Source of the DNA: an uncultured Methylococcaceae bacterium
GTDB taxonomy: Bacteria; Pseudomonadota; Gammaproteobacteria; Methylococcales; Methylomonadaceae
Length of the DNA: 34,240 nucleotides
NCBI GenBank assembly: GCA_903945605.1
Contig: CAJAWH010000096.1
Coordinates: 1-34,240 of the forward strand
Direction: 5' to 3'
The notes under the pieces are model-generated. The model saw only the letters and a program-made list of their open reading frames with translations, did not search any database and was not told where the DNA came from. This document shows, piece after piece, positions 9,975-14,436 of this stretch (position 1 is its first letter; the number at the start of each line of letters is the position of its first letter). Position numbers and translations under genes: made by a program.

Positions 9975-10030
9975 TACCGTTTTTGCAGAGGAAAAGCTTC
10001 TGGCATCGGAAGGGCCAAGTAAAACCGCAC

Positions 10031-10058
10031 CCGTTGGCTGAGCGTAGCCGAAGCCCTG
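10031..10058 (-). repeat. REP-like palindrome R2
   Basis: Minus-strand core is GGGCTTCGGCTACGCTCAGC, the inverted partner of R1 with 56 bases between them. Confidence 0.75.
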
Positions 10059-10095
10059 CCAACATCCGCTTTTTGCAATTAGCCATAACCAAACG

Positions 10096-10875
10096 CTACC
10101 CGCCCTCGACCACAATGATATGTTTTGCCAGCATGTTTTGCAGGATTTGCAAGCCACCCGCGTGGATAATGGCGGGATTGGGATGACCTGATTCTGCCGC
10201 CACTTGTTGCAGGCAATCCGCCACGTTAATGGCTGTTTGTTGCTGGATGATTGCCAGCAAACGGTAAGTCATGGGGGTGATTTCGATAAACGCCACGTCA
10301 TCACTGACATTACGGTGCACCACCAAAAAAGTGGGCTGTGCCGGTGCTGTGTTAGGGATAAAATCAGGGGCAATTTTATGGACGGGGTATTGGTAGGCCA
10401 AAGGCCAAGCCAGCGGTGATAAGCTGATGGTTTGCCGGGCCAGATCGCTGCCGTCAACATTGTTGATGGTTAAGCTGTCTTGGCTGATCGCCAAGGCCAT
10501 TTCCACCCATTCGTAATGTGCCAGCTCCACCAAAAAGGGCAGATCATCGGGATGCTTGCGTTCGTTCTGCAAGTAATCAATAAATTCTTCGGGAATTTCC
10601 GAAAAATACGGAGTTTGGCAGCGATGCTGGGCAAAAAAACCATTAACCAGTGCCAGCCATTGCGGCCCGTCCAGCAGGCTGAACAACACCGGAAAATTGC
10701 TGCTGAGAAAGCCATTGATATTATTGAACAGCAGTTCACGGTAAATGGCGACACGGGGCAGCGGGGCATCCGCCGGTGGCGGGAAGCGGTCTGGGGAGCG
10801 CAGATAATCGGCAAATTCGCGCTGTTTGGCGGCAAAATCCACCCGCCCGCCACGACTAGGCGGACTGTTGTGCAT
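10096..10875 (-). CDS. bufC: DUF2063/HvfC-type RiPP partner protein
   Basis: A 259-residue protein with an N-terminal DUF2063 domain (FAAKQREFADYLRSP at about residues 14-28, then YRELLFNNINGFLSSNFPVL) and a C-terminal domain typical of BufC/HvfC/MbnC-like partners. Such proteins form a complex with a DUF692 enzyme and help present the precursor peptide. ATG 10875 is chosen although the frame stays open to 11199: the upstream part overlaps bufB in another frame and looks nothing like the family. The start lies inside bufB (20-base overlap), so translation is probably coupled. It is the last gene of the operon and is followed by REP elements. Role is inferred from family and context; sequence similarity alone gives only DUF2063. 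Confidence 0.88.
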   Translation of the reverse strand: MHNSPPSRGGRVDFAAKQREFADYLRSPDRFPPPADAPLPRVAIYRELLFNNINGFLSSNFPVLFSLLDGPQWLALVNGFFAQHRCQTPYFSEIPEEFIDYLQNERKHPDDLPFLVELAHYEWVEMALAISQDSLTINNVDGSDLARQTISLSPLAWPLAYQYPVHKIAPDFIPNTAPAQPTFLVVHRNVSDDVAFIEITPMTYRLLAIIQQQTAINVADCLQQVAAESGHPNPAIIHAGGLQILQNMLAKHIIVVEGG

Positions 10876-11710
10876 GTTGTGCGCCCCAGGCACTTTGGAT
10901 GTCTTTGATAGTGGCCACTTCGCGCATGAGTTCGGCAAGTGGCGGAATATTAAAATCCCTTTCCAGTAAGGTGGGGAACACGCCAAACAGCTCGTAAGCT
11001 TTGCCCAGCAACTTCCAAACCGGATCAATAATTTCTGCACCGTGGGTGTCGACCAAGAAATCATCGGCTTCAACATAATGGCCCGCCACGTGCGCGTAGC
11101 TGATGCGTTGCCCGGGCATGGCGCGCAGAAAGGCCTCGGCATCGTAGCGGTGGTTGATGCTGTTGACGTAGATGTTATTGATGTCGAGCAGAATGTCACA
11201 ATCGGCTTCAGCTACGACGGCATTAAAAAATTCTATTTCGCTCATCTCCTGCCCTAATGCGGCATAGTAAGAGGCATTTTCAACGGCGATGCGTTGCCCC
11301 AATATGTCTTGCACGCGCCTGATGCGGGCGGCGACATGGCTAACGGCTTCGGCGGTGAAGGGAATGGGCAATAAATCGTACAGATGGCCATTTTTGCTGC
11401 AATAGCTCAGATGTTCGCTATACAACTTGATTTGATGGCTATGCATGAATTGCTTGACCGACAACACTAATTGCTCGTCGAGCGGGTCGGTGCTGCCTAA
11501 GGACAAGGACAGCCCGTGGCAGATGACAGCGTGCCGTTCGGTGACTGCACGGAATTGTTTGCCCAGTTTGCCGCCGATGGTTATCCAGTTTTCTGGTGCC
11601 ACTTCATAAAAGCCAACATCCAGCGGCGTATCGATAACGTGTGACAGAAAAGACCGGCGCAAGCCCAAACCAGCACCTTGCACCAAGTTTTGGGTGGTGT
11701 CCATAAGCAT
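10856..11710 (-). CDS. bufB: DUF692/MNIO-family multinuclear iron oxidase
   Basis: A 284-residue TIM-barrel protein of the DUF692 (MbnB/TglH/HvfB) family. These enzymes use a two- or three-iron centre to oxidise cysteine residues of a peptide substrate, for example to thio-oxazole or oxazolone-type groups. Likely metal-binding residues are visible: EN 40-41, H65, EH 99-100, EN 144-145, D176/N178, H207, H211 and D221/H223. The start GAGLGLRRSF (12-21) and the block DILLDINNIYVNS (172-184) are family signatures. The first ATG (11710) is used; ATG 11704 is a possible alternative. It follows bufA by 82 bases and overlaps bufC. With bufA it almost certainly modifies the BufA cysteines; the exact product is inference. 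Confidence 0.92.
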   Translation of the reverse strand: MLMDTTQNLVQGAGLGLRRSFLSHVIDTPLDVGFYEVAPENWITIGGKLGKQFRAVTERHAVICHGLSLSLGSTDPLDEQLVLSVKQFMHSHQIKLYSEHLSYCSKNGHLYDLLPIPFTAEAVSHVAARIRRVQDILGQRIAVENASYYAALGQEMSEIEFFNAVVAEADCDILLDINNIYVNSINHRYDAEAFLRAMPGQRISYAHVAGHYVEADDFLVDTHGAEIIDPVWKLLGKAYELFGVFPTLLERDFNIPPLAELMREVATIKDIQSAWGAQHAQQSA

Positions 11711-11743
11711 ACCTATAGCGGGTAATGGGGCACAAGCAAGATA

Positions 11744-11765
11744 AGGGGCATAAGGCTATGCCCCT
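11744..11765 (-). promoter_or_regulatory. hairpin between bufA and bufB
   Basis: AGGGGCATA (11744-11752) and TATGCCCCT (11757-11765) form a perfect 9-bp GC-rich stem with a 4-base loop in the 82-bp bufA-bufB gap. On the minus strand it is followed by TTATCTTGCTTG, a poor T-run. It may act as a partial terminator or mRNA-end stabiliser, so that the precursor is made in excess over the enzymes. Confidence 0.55.
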
Positions 11766-11792
11766 CTTCCACACATGCGGACAGCTGATCGA

Positions 11793-12413
11793 TTAATGTT
11801 TGGCTGGTGCTGCTGGAGTGGTTGCTGGTGCAGGTGTCACATTGGCTGCACAGCCGCCTTCTTTGCCTTTCATCATTTCGGTGCAACCTTGCATGTTGTC
11901 GCCACAGCCTTTCATAGCCGCGCCACAAGCACCTTCTTTGGCTTTGGCATCAGGGCAGCTTTTCATGTGTTCGCCACATTGGTTGGCGCATTTGCCTTCT
12001 GGCATTTTACCGGCCCCACAGGCGCCTTCTTTACCTTTCATGGATTCACCTTTCATCATTTCACCGCAAGCGCCTTCCTTACCTTTCATCATGGCACCGC
12101 AGGCTGATTCCATGCCTTTTTTCATTTTGTCGCCATCCATCATATCGCCACATTTGCCTTCAGTGGTTTTTTGGGCAGCGGTTTTTTTGTTGTTGCCAGC
12201 ACAAGCGCCCTCAGCCGCTTTGGGTGTACCCATGCCCATGGCTGCACCACAAGCCATTTCAGCGGCTTTGGTAGCTTCTGCAACTTGCATATAGCCAGAA
12301 GACAATTCGGTCATGCCAAAAGGATTTTCTGCATGGGCAGCGGTGGCGGCAACTGAAGAAATAAATGCCATGCCCATGGCGGCGGCTAAAGGAGATTTGT
12401 TGGTTGTTTTCAT
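11793..12413 (-). CDS. bufA: bufferin/HvfA-like secreted RiPP precursor, Cys- and Met-rich
   Basis: A 206-residue protein. Residues 1-28 are a Sec signal peptide (MKTTNKSPLAAAMGMAF..., cleavage after AAHA). The mature part has 13 Cys (55, 71, 88, 105, 116, 132, 142, 146, 153, 163, 170, 177, 188) and about 20 Met. Nine Cys sit in an E-x-x-C-G/A motif, mostly EGACG with one EGKCG. In known bufferins the EGKCG cysteines become copper-binding thio-oxazoles. Units such as MMKGKEGACG recur. The C-terminus is a short Ala/Pro/Thr tail ending in KH. ATG 12413 has GAGG 7 bases upstream. The next genes are bufB and bufC. The most likely role is copper buffering in the periplasm; the family assignment is strong, while the chemistry on Ala-variant motifs is inference. 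Confidence 0.88.
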   Translation of the reverse strand: MKTTNKSPLAAAMGMAFISSVAATAAHAENPFGMTELSSGYMQVAEATKAAEMACGAAMGMGTPKAAEGACAGNNKKTAAQKTTEGKCGDMMDGDKMKKGMESACGAMMKGKEGACGEMMKGESMKGKEGACGAGKMPEGKCANQCGEHMKSCPDAKAKEGACGAAMKGCGDNMQGCTEMMKGKEGGCAANVTPAPATTPAAPAKH

Positions 12414-12466
12414 GTTGGCCTCGTAAATTGAGTGTAAGTAATGGGAAATGCTTTGCTTAACGATCT

Positions 12467-12495
12467 ATTATAAATGCAAATTGCCTTAATAATAA
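12467..12495 (-). promoter_or_regulatory. promoter of the bufABC operon
   Basis: Minus-strand reading: -35 TTATTA (12490-12495), 17-base spacer and a perfect -10 TATAAT (12467-12472). The predicted start near 12460 leaves a leader of about 47 bases before bufA. The -35 box is weak, which fits a promoter needing an activator; no copper-responsive operator was recognised. Confidence 0.5.
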
Positions 12496-12570
12496 GGGTT
12501 TGTTGTTGTCAGGCACGGCTTGCACTGTGTTTGGCTGGTGTGGTGTCCGGTGTTGTTGTCCCCATGCGGG

Positions 12571-13209
12571 TCAAGCCGTTGCTGTTTTGGCATCGAACTC
12601 GCAGCAATCAGCCAGCAAACAACCTTGGCAACGCGGCTTTCTGGCTATACAAGTGTAACGCCCATGCAGAATAAGTAAATGATGGGCTTCTTTTTTGTGT
12701 CGTTTGGGCACCCATTTGTCCAATTTTTTTTCCACTTCCAGCACATTTTTGCCCGGTGCAATGCCAGTGCGGTTGGCAACGCGGAAAATATGCGTGTCCA
12801 CAGCAATGGTGGGCTGCCCAAACGCGGTGTTTAGGATAACATTAGCAGTTTTTCTGCCCACCCCCGCCAGTGCCTCCAGCTCTTGACGGGTGGATGGCAC
12901 CTGCCCGTCATGCCGTTCGATCAGCTGTTGGCTAAGGAGGATAAGGTTGCTGGCCTTGTTGTTGAACAGGCCAATGGTTTTGATGTGTTGTTTTAGGTTG
13001 TCCACGCCTAAAGCCAGCAAACTGGCCGGGGTGTTGGCAACTGGAAACAGTTTGGCGGTAGCCTTGTTGACCCCCTTATCGGTGGCTTGTGCCGATAACA
13101 CCACTGCAACCAATAATTCAAATGCCGTTGTGTAATGCAGCTCTGTACTGGGATTAGGGTTGGCTGCCGCCAAACGGTCAAAAATTTCCAGACGTTTTTG
13201 TGCGTTCAT
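12571..13209 (-). CDS. nth: endonuclease III (DNA glycosylase/AP lyase)
   Basis: A 212-residue HhH-GPD DNA glycosylase that removes oxidised pyrimidines in base-excision repair. The helix-hairpin-helix LAGVGRKTAN carries the catalytic lysine 120, and aspartate 138 is in AVDTHIFR; both match the E. coli numbering. The [4Fe-4S] cluster ligands are complete at Cys 187, 194, 197 and 203 (C-x6-C-x2-C-x5-C). The length equals E. coli Nth. It is the last gene of a possible minus-strand run behind the ABC and GH5 genes, 51 bases after the GH5 stop. It is unrelated in function to either neighbour. Confidence 0.97.
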   Translation of the reverse strand: MNAQKRLEIFDRLAAANPNPSTELHYTTAFELLVAVVLSAQATDKGVNKATAKLFPVANTPASLLALGVDNLKQHIKTIGLFNNKASNLILLSQQLIERHDGQVPSTRQELEALAGVGRKTANVILNTAFGQPTIAVDTHIFRVANRTGIAPGKNVLEVEKKLDKWVPKRHKKEAHHLLILHGRYTCIARKPRCQGCLLADCCEFDAKTATA

Positions 13210-13260
13210 GCCTGTTCTGTTGGGCGGGCAGGTTTACGGGGCATTGGCTGGGCACGGCGG

Positions 13261-14436
13261 TTAATGCTGGTTGCCGCGCAAAATGTCTTCTTGCAATCCG
13301 GCAAACTGGTCAAGATCATTTAAATTGGGAATCCAGCCGCGCTTGACACAATCCCGATAACACCAAGCGGGCGTGGTTTCGGTTTTGTAAGTCCAAAAGA
13401 ACCAGCCCAAATATTTTTCAAAAGCCAGCAATTCGGCGGCGGCATAAGCACGATAAGCGACAGACAGCTGGAATGCATCCATCTCTTGTTGGTCATGGTT
13501 AAAAGGGTCCTGTTGCCAGTGTGCGAGCATCCTTAAATCCAGCCCCAAGCTCCATTCCCCACAATACACCGGCAAGGCCAATCCGCTGATAATGGCATCG
13601 GCTTCTTGTTTCCAGTCTTGTATGGTTTTTTGGATATGGCCAAAAATATCCAAATTAAGGTCTGCTTCCACAAAACATTGGTAACGGTGAATATCCAGCA
13701 CGACATTTTGAAATTCTGGCGCGGTCAAAAAACCCAGGTATTCTTGATAAGTGCGGAAACCATCATGGAACACCACGGACACGGCTTCTGGACGGCAATG
13801 TTTGCGGATACGGTGATAAGCGGCGGTGGTGTAATGTTTTAATAGGTCTGTGGCAATGTCCCAGCGCGGTTCGTTCAGCACTTCTATGCCGTGCAAGGCG
13901 GGGTAAGCGGCATAGCGTTCCGCCAAGCGCTCCAGCACGTCAAGCGAATGGTTTATATACGCTTCGTTAGTGTGCCATTCACAGACATCTTTAATGCCGC
14001 CGTTATCAAAACCGTTTTGGCAACCAGGCGCGGCATGTAAATCCAACACGATGAGCAAACCGCATTCGGTGGCCCACTGAAAAGCGCGGTCAAGCACCGC
14101 CACACCACCTGGCACATAAGGATAACGGTTGTTGCCGTAACTGCTGTGGTAAGGGTAATCGGCACCAAACAGCCAATGGCCCACGGGGATGCGCACCGCG
14201 TTGATACCTGCTTTAGCTAACCAAGCAAAATCTTCGCGGGTGATAAAACTGTCCCAATGGGAGGTCAATCGTGAAGCCGCTTGTGAACCCAATTCCACGC
14301 AAAAAGACGTTTCATCTTGGGCTGCCAAGCCGGTAAAAAGACTAGGGGTGATCCATTTCTCCAATACCAGCCAACCGCCTAGGTTGACACCACGGATTTT
14401 TTTGCGCGGATAAGATGTGGCAATAAAATCCGTCAC
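13261..14436 (-). CDS. GH5 family glycoside hydrolase, exo-beta-1,3-glucanase-like
   Basis: A 391-residue (beta/alpha)8 enzyme of clan GH-A. The opening RGVNLGGWLVLEKWITPSLF (15-34) is characteristic of the GH5 branch containing fungal exo-beta-1,3-glucanases. The acid/base is E189 in EVLNEP and the nucleophile is E294 in YCGEWS; HAAPG (134-138) is also conserved. There is no signal peptide, so it is predicted to be cytoplasmic, unlike most relatives. The start is GTG 14436, with GAAGGA about 7 bases upstream; it overlaps the ABC gene stop in a GTGA, so translation is coupled. The substrate is probably a beta-1,3/1,6-linked glucoside or a glycolipid; this is not resolved by sequence. Confidence 0.88.
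   Translation of the reverse strand: MTDFIATSYPRKKIRGVNLGGWLVLEKWITPSLFTGLAAQDETSFCVELGSQAASRLTSHWDSFITREDFAWLAKAGINAVRIPVGHWLFGADYPYHSSYGNNRYPYVPGGVAVLDRAFQWATECGLLIVLDLHAAPGCQNGFDNGGIKDVCEWHTNEAYINHSLDVLERLAERYAAYPALHGIEVLNEPRWDIATDLLKHYTTAAYHRIRKHCRPEAVSVVFHDGFRTYQEYLGFLTAPEFQNVVLDIHRYQCFVEADLNLDIFGHIQKTIQDWKQEADAIISGLALPVYCGEWSLGLDLRMLAHWQQDPFNHDQQEMDAFQLSVAYRAYAAAELLAFEKYLGWFFWTYKTETTPAWCYRDCVKRGWIPNLNDLDQFAGLQEDILRGNQH

Follow-up and report, generated by a model that had tools for sequence, protein, structure and literature searches.

The closest RiPP precedent for the element described here is the inverted repeat between cinA and cinM, which excerpts of PMC5408092 describe as an attenuator on the evidence of S1 mapping, cinA transcripts being more abundant than those of cinMX. 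That arrangement resembles the one in the stretch of DNA analysed here (the window, 34 240 nucleotides in length) in that, within a single operon, the gene for a RiPP precursor is separated by an inverted repeat from the first of the modification enzyme genes. It differs in belonging to another RiPP class and another phylum, and in that attenuation was demonstrated there by S1 mapping and transcript levels, whereas the case for the window's operon is one of conservation over many species. A hairpin between the precursor and the B gene is reportedly present in the astexin-1 lasso peptide cluster. For expression of that cluster, which is of a RiPP class different from the window's, a table in the excerpt of the review PMC7549694 gives 'removal of the hairpin' as a measure alongside an exchanged ribosome binding site.

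Two further systems come from excerpts of papers on operons with internal stem-loops. In the ABC importer operons of Ruminiclostridium, which are not RiPP operons, ratios are set by internal terminators that lie after the genes for substrate-binding proteins and have a lower U content and longer, GC-rich stems (PMC9045158), and, as in the window, a stem-loop with a U-tract weaker than canonical follows a gene needed in excess. The cip-cel operon likewise has intergenic stem-loops, there taking part in selective RNA processing that sets ratios within one operon (PMC10311766). Both differ from the window in their evidence, termination having been measured in the importer operons (PMC9045158) and endoribonuclease cleavage reported in cip-cel (PMC10311766). 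No hairpin in a precursor-maturase gap was found in searches of open-licence PMC papers, several of which returned mainly unrelated work, and this does not prove that none has been published; a word search within PMC12452194, PMC3621798, PMC13097082 and PMC13419390 returned no mention of one.

The source of the window is an uncultured Methylococcaceae bacterium, a member of a methane-eating group, and its minus strand carries a three-gene RiPP operon of hvf/buf type consisting of precursor, maturase and partner genes. The precursor gene (11793..12413, minus strand), named bufA in the original prediction and hvfA/Buf-EGKCG-like by its ORF and motif counts, encodes 206 amino acids including 13 Cys and four EGxCG motifs, three of which read EGACG, and has an N-terminal signal-like stretch (a signal peptide as judged by eye). 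No Pfam or NCBIfam model matched this protein, so that its assignment rests on motifs and gene neighbours; it is a probable copper-peptide precursor, and copper binding by the operon product is suggested by what excerpts of PMC13097082 report on related peptides. The maturase, an MNIO enzyme (10856..11710, minus strand, start probably at 11704), matched PF05114 (MbnB_TglH_ChrH) with 350 bits and the NCBIfam HvfB family model NF003818 with 435 bits (cut-off 360), but reached only 273.9 bits against the BufB model, below its cut-off of 310. The partner gene (about 10096..10875, minus strand) encodes a protein with DUF2063 and NGO1945_C matches that scored 306 bits against the HvfC model NF050145 (cut-off 142), in scans that used the translation from 10881 and not from the candidate ATG at 10875. 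As the HvfB and HvfC models pass and BufB stays under its cut-off, hvfABC is a better name for these genes than the buf names first given to them, and the combination of an MNIO maturase with an HvfC-type partner is that of an HvfABC/Buf-EGKCG (oxazolin-type) operon. A perfect TATAAT on the minus strand at 12467-12472, 53 nt upstream of the precursor start, is a candidate promoter -10 box for the operon; it is absent from the promoter scan listing, probably for want of a good -35.

If the partner gene starts at its candidate ATG (10875), it shares 20 nt with the end of the maturase gene; the gap between precursor and enzyme genes (11711..11792, minus strand) is wide by contrast. Its length of 82 nt to the first ATG agrees with the original prediction, but its end point is at odds with most relatives. 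The maturase start region (11702-11710) reads ATG CTT ATG, and most relatives begin at the position of the second ATG (11704); AGGTGTTC precedes the start in their alignments, and the window's first ATG (11710) falls within their spacer. The maturase therefore probably starts at 11704 and not at 11710, further upstream, and the gap then measures 88 nt. Where the relatives' consensus has AGGTGTTC, the window has a Shine-Dalgarno-like AGGT (11711..11714, minus strand). The consensus fold of the relatives shows no pairing of the start signal with the stretch that follows the hairpin, whereas the fold predicted for the window pairs AGGT weakly with that stretch (11711-11738), so that the signal may not be fully free; this weak pairing might dampen the maturase start in the window's species.

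A perfect 9-bp core stem with a 4-nt loop lies in this gap at 11744..11765 (minus strand; arms 11744-11752 and 11757-11765, 100% complementary), just as had been predicted between the substrate and enzyme genes, although 'GC-rich' is only a moderately apt description of it, five of the nine pairs being G-C. Read on the minus strand, the stem has 10 pairs at 11743-11766 with a G-U at 11743/11766 (-15.6 kcal/mol), and the full hairpin (11739..11770, minus strand), which begins 22 nt after the precursor stop codon, comprises 13 pairs with one 1x1 mismatch and the tetraloop (-18.2 kcal/mol). The nearest relative (L003/L032; the L003 maturase is 97% identical) has a perfect 15-bp stem with an energy of -23.0; 4 nt of the 5' arm of that stem are missing in the window.

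Perfect stems of at least 9 bp with a loop of 3-8 nt occur three times in the whole window, where 20 shuffles gave an average of 1.3 (sd 1.5). When the 82-nt gap was dinucleotide-shuffled, such a stem arose in 6 of 5000 cases, and the best 36-nt local fold of the gap was matched by none of 100 (z -2.8); the folding of the whole 101-nt region is not special (z -1.62). A loose terminator pattern scan listed the stem among 11 sites in 4 kb, compared with 5.7 (sd 2.2) in shuffles, and is thus unspecific. The window's palindrome occurs at one place in the 2.88-Mb genome. Rfam covariance models gave no match in positions 10000-13300 up to E = 1, and membership of a known Rfam family was set aside. 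Taken by itself the hairpin is weak evidence, since it is unremarkable window-wide, and its real support is conservation.

Maturase matches were present in 96 of the 101 genomes searched, the window's own included. We worked with 80 named loci (the best 80 of 91) from the genome collection and 40 stretches from the list of maturase matches, counting identical gaps once because these two sources overlap. The family-level set comprised 105 loci, namely family f1 of the maturase matches plus the named loci L032-L079, the latter admitted by a maturase identity of at least 69% and not by tree. A candidate precursor ORF was obtained at 99 of them, giving 87 distinct gaps, of which 72 measured 45-200 nt (the window's being one), 12 were longer and three shorter. 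A hairpin of -12 kcal/mol or better was found in 71 of the 72 distinct gaps of 45-200 nt, and in 63 the best hairpin had its 3' end 16-46 nt upstream of the maturase start, with a median of 29 and quartiles of 26 and 32; the 16-46 range was chosen after the distances had been seen. At most 5 of 100 dinucleotide shuffles folded equally well in 68 of the 72 gaps, and at most one in 66. The conservation in related operons that the original prediction named as a check is thus strongly borne out, in presence, in position and, as detailed below, in pairing.

In the remaining nine of the 72 gaps the best hairpin is not at the usual place. Other hairpins precede the maturase start at 29 nt in L031 (a second one, -18.7), at 26 nt in L120 (-11.7) and at 22 nt in L131 (-9.0), while the stem of L026 (-20.9, 22 nt before the start) was rejected by the hairpin finder for its larger internal loop. 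The finder used gave no strong hairpin at 16-46 nt in L019, L025, L072, L122 and L132; it undercounts, because stems with an internal loop larger than 2 nt are not accepted, and for L122 it returned -1.8 where the best 36-nt fold reaches -18.0. Among the 12 long gaps, which lie outside the 72, a strong hairpin is present no more than 90 nt from the precursor stop in L021, L062 and L066. In L077 and L078 a hairpin of -12.7 precedes the maturase start by 18 nt, and the remaining seven have neither kind. In L077, L078, L079, L117 and L125 precursor and maturase are separated by about 600 nt instead of about 80, probably with another gene inside, and the first 90 nt past the precursor hold no strong hairpin. 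Three of the 63 positioned hairpins (L018, L042 and L045) are a different, repeat-like palindrome, longer and based on TTGGGTTA; it looks as if a dispersed repeat had replaced the hairpin there.

Two sets of control stretches were compared for position. Of 70 stretches of equal length just upstream of the same precursor genes, which are approximate because the precursor start was set at the first start codon of the ORF, eight contained a hairpin reaching -12 or better and six had it at the corresponding distance; among the gaps of these 70 loci, 69 contained one and 61 had it at position. The second set, other gaps of 65-125 nt between genes running the same way, was derived from approximate ORF calls in 248 kb of the window's own genome (the window included, and possibly this gap) and 400 kb of genome G019, which belongs to the window's genus. 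It had a hairpin in 8 of 42 cases and at position in 3 of 42, against 56 of 59 at position for the family-level set's own gaps of 65-125 nt. A Fisher p of 8e-21 was obtained, which does not take relatedness into account.

Pairing is kept in these hairpins while the sequence changes. An alignment of 58 of the 59 gaps of 60-125 nt (A1) was poor and gave a weak consensus (5 pairs, -2.16 kcal/mol), because the arms of other species at the same place differ greatly (e.g. L012, L049 and L133). A second alignment (A2) contained 34 of these 58 gaps, selected for the common stem type, and its covariation therefore speaks for that type only. On these 34 gaps RNAalifold predicted a 10-pair stem of -16.87 kcal/mol with compensatory changes at all ten pairs. 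Pair counting found 94.0% of 333 cells paired, as against 81.6% when shuffled and 46-60% when the arms were slid; 47 cells were changed on both sides compared with 13.1 in shuffles, slides of 1-3 columns coming nowhere near, and the covariation of 0.487 (0.263 in shuffles) was reached by none of 500 shuffles. As position and pairing persist while sequence turns over, a function of the RNA hairpin is very likely. The hairpin itself is real and conserved, and it is very probably a functional RNA.

The same alignments bear on the idea that the element is a DNA palindrome bound by a regulator and not an RNA element. The sites are indeed near-perfect inverted repeats, but the arms vary widely among relatives with pairing maintained, the loop ranges from 3 to 9 nt, and G-U cells outnumber A-C cells by 15 to 3 in the inner pair columns 34-41 (19 to 7 over all ten columns), an excess that fits coding-strand RNA and not a DNA palindrome; the promoter scan, moreover, lists no sigma-70-like promoter in the gap. 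We consider this explanation very unlikely, and an operator palindrome was rejected as the arms differ among relatives where a conserved recognition sequence would be expected.

A chance inverted repeat or a dispersed repeat could draw on the three perfect stems in the window where 1.3 would be expected, and on the three relatives with an apparently dispersed TTGGGTTA palindrome in the gap. Conserved position and covariation speak against it, as do the single copy of the window's palindrome in 2.88 Mb and an exact-pattern search in which the common stem type turned up once among 61 genomes, in the same gap of G033 (a result that, with one genome positive, speaks for that genome), and we regard it as extremely improbable. 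A REP-like dispersed repeat, which should occur in many copies, was discarded with the palindrome at one place in the genome.

With respect to translation, the hairpin begins at a median of 28 nt past the precursor stop codon (minimum 10, over 63 gaps), which by our estimate leaves it clear of both ribosome footprints, that of the precursor end and that of the maturase start. It should thus be able to fold while ribosomes occupy both gene ends, with the AGGTGTTC start signal outside the stem. This placement between two likely ribosome footprints would also suit a translational device, in which the hairpin prevents ribosomes leaving the precursor from coupling to the maturase start, or shapes the accessibility of that start, and the weak pairing of AGGT predicted for the window points the same way. 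The conserved AGGTGTTC signal, however, lies outside the stem and is unpaired in the consensus fold, and such a device seems unlikely to us.

The sequence after the stem is less uniform than the stem itself. In the window an interrupted T-rich stretch (11732..11744, minus strand) covers the end of the 3' arm and beyond, with a longest T run of 2, seven T in the 12 nt past the last G-C pair of the 10-bp stem and five in 12 for the 13-pair stem. The stable, GC-containing coding-strand hairpin of a canonical intrinsic terminator is present (-15.6 and -18.2 kcal/mol), but the uninterrupted U-tract of about 6-8 U is not, and with its T run interrupted the window's hairpin is no canonical terminator; it scores as terminator-like under the loose pattern scan only. 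Over 64 hairpins (the 63 positioned ones and the second of L031), T after the stem exceeds A before it (Wilcoxon p 2e-6, relatedness ignored). Of the 17 hairpins known by handle to belong to the window's genus, 11 have at least six T in the 12 nt past the stem, as do 21 of 47 others, the mirrored counts of at least six A in 12 before the stem being 3 of 17 and 5 of 47. A terminator d score was above 0 in 9 of the 72 gaps only (window -32.8); it separates poorly and proved uninformative in these genomes, as no more than 2 of 44 convergent gaps score above 0. With T counts varying in this way, what is conserved is the hairpin, and the tail varies by degrees; a U-tract is not conserved across the gaps.

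These tails bear on the reading as a purely weak intrinsic terminator, at which polymerase would stop past the hairpin in a fixed fraction of passages and the structure would matter during transcription only. The high T counts in the window's genus agree with it, L016, L133 and L031 being very terminator-like, and so does the asymmetry of T over A, since at least five T in 8 nt occur in 29 of 72 gaps (the mirrored count for A being 11 of 72), and in 9 of 22 strong hairpins in convergent gaps of two genomes (better strand taken). The median distance of 28 nt past the stop codon would suit it too, as termination efficiency grows with distance from the translated gene according to an excerpt of PMC4824070. 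The low share in other genera and the interrupted tail of the window count against it, and overall we give this reading a substantial, though less than even, chance. A purely 3'-end stabiliser, for which a full-length transcript would be cut in the gap and the hairpin would block exonucleases from the precursor message, has in its favour that conservation is much stronger in the hairpin than in the tail, and that intergenic stem-loops with such a role are documented for the cip-cel operon (excerpt of PMC10311766). It leaves the oriented T-rich tail unexplained, and no conserved cleavage-like sequence is seen by eye beside the stem in the alignments, so that we hold it only tentatively, as a somewhat doubtful sole explanation. 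The original prediction had named a leaky terminator and a stability hairpin side by side, and sequence does not separate the two. A regulated attenuator with a competing anti-terminator finds no support, the alignments showing no conserved upstream sequence or alternative helix.

The reading we prefer, and consider likely by analogy with the described systems, is that the hairpin is an intercistronic attenuator and/or 3'-end stabiliser that raises precursor over enzyme. It would act as an RNA element on the coding strand, within a transcript presumably shared by precursor and maturase genes, and would make the precursor part of this transcript more abundant than the maturase part, resulting in a high precursor-to-enzyme ratio. 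This could come about by a weak internal terminator that only a fraction of polymerases pass, by protection of the precursor message at its 3' end, or by the two routes together. A greater abundance of precursor than of enzyme transcript is the function best supported by analogy with the measured cases. The locus has the layout of a RiPP attenuator of the cinA-cinM type, with an inverted repeat between the precursor and modification enzyme genes on one strand, and the structure is kept in related operons, which is expected of this type though not strictly defining. The hairpin belongs with the known intercistronic attenuator or stabiliser hairpins of operons that need one product in excess.

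Outside the family set, a candidate precursor was found at 37 of 45 loci, with 22 gaps shorter than 45 nt, five longer than 200 nt and 10 of 45-200 nt. Six of these 10 hold a significant hairpin, three of them (L089, L090 and L091) outside the order by record title. As 22 of the 37 gaps are too short for a hairpin, the operon type works without one, and the gap counts make the hairpin a feature of the operon in the window's lineage, with scattered parallels. A further 20 MNIO loci, other than the main one, were read roughly. In three of the same order but distant (L199, L208 and L211), unrelated hairpins precede the maturase start by 27, 30 and 31 nt; those of L199 and L208 are followed by T runs and come with believable precursors, while the precursor ORF of L211 is wrong or doubtful. 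Eight others with a believable precursor (L192, L193, L196, L201, L203, L205, L206 and L207) have gaps of 9-34 nt and no real hairpin. At the remaining 10, L211 among them, the upstream ORF pick was wrong or doubtful and they were left uncounted. The hairpins of L199, L208 and L211 and the six outside the family set would fit a general rule for MNIO-type metallophore operons, of which the window's hairpin would be one instance. By this rule a fast-evolving, purely structural RNA element, placed some 30 nt upstream of the maturase start and possibly lost and gained anew on separate occasions, fixes the precursor-to-enzyme ratio; the 22 of 37 short gaps outside the set argue against such a rule, which we put forward as speculative and somewhat doubtful.

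Copper-binding MNIO peptides are presumably needed in large excess over their maturase. If the preferred reading is true, a conserved, exchangeable hairpin would be the means by which MNIO operons set the ratio of precursor to enzyme, and it would be useful for expressing such clusters in other hosts, with about 70 natural variants forming a series for measuring how stem and tail tune the operon.
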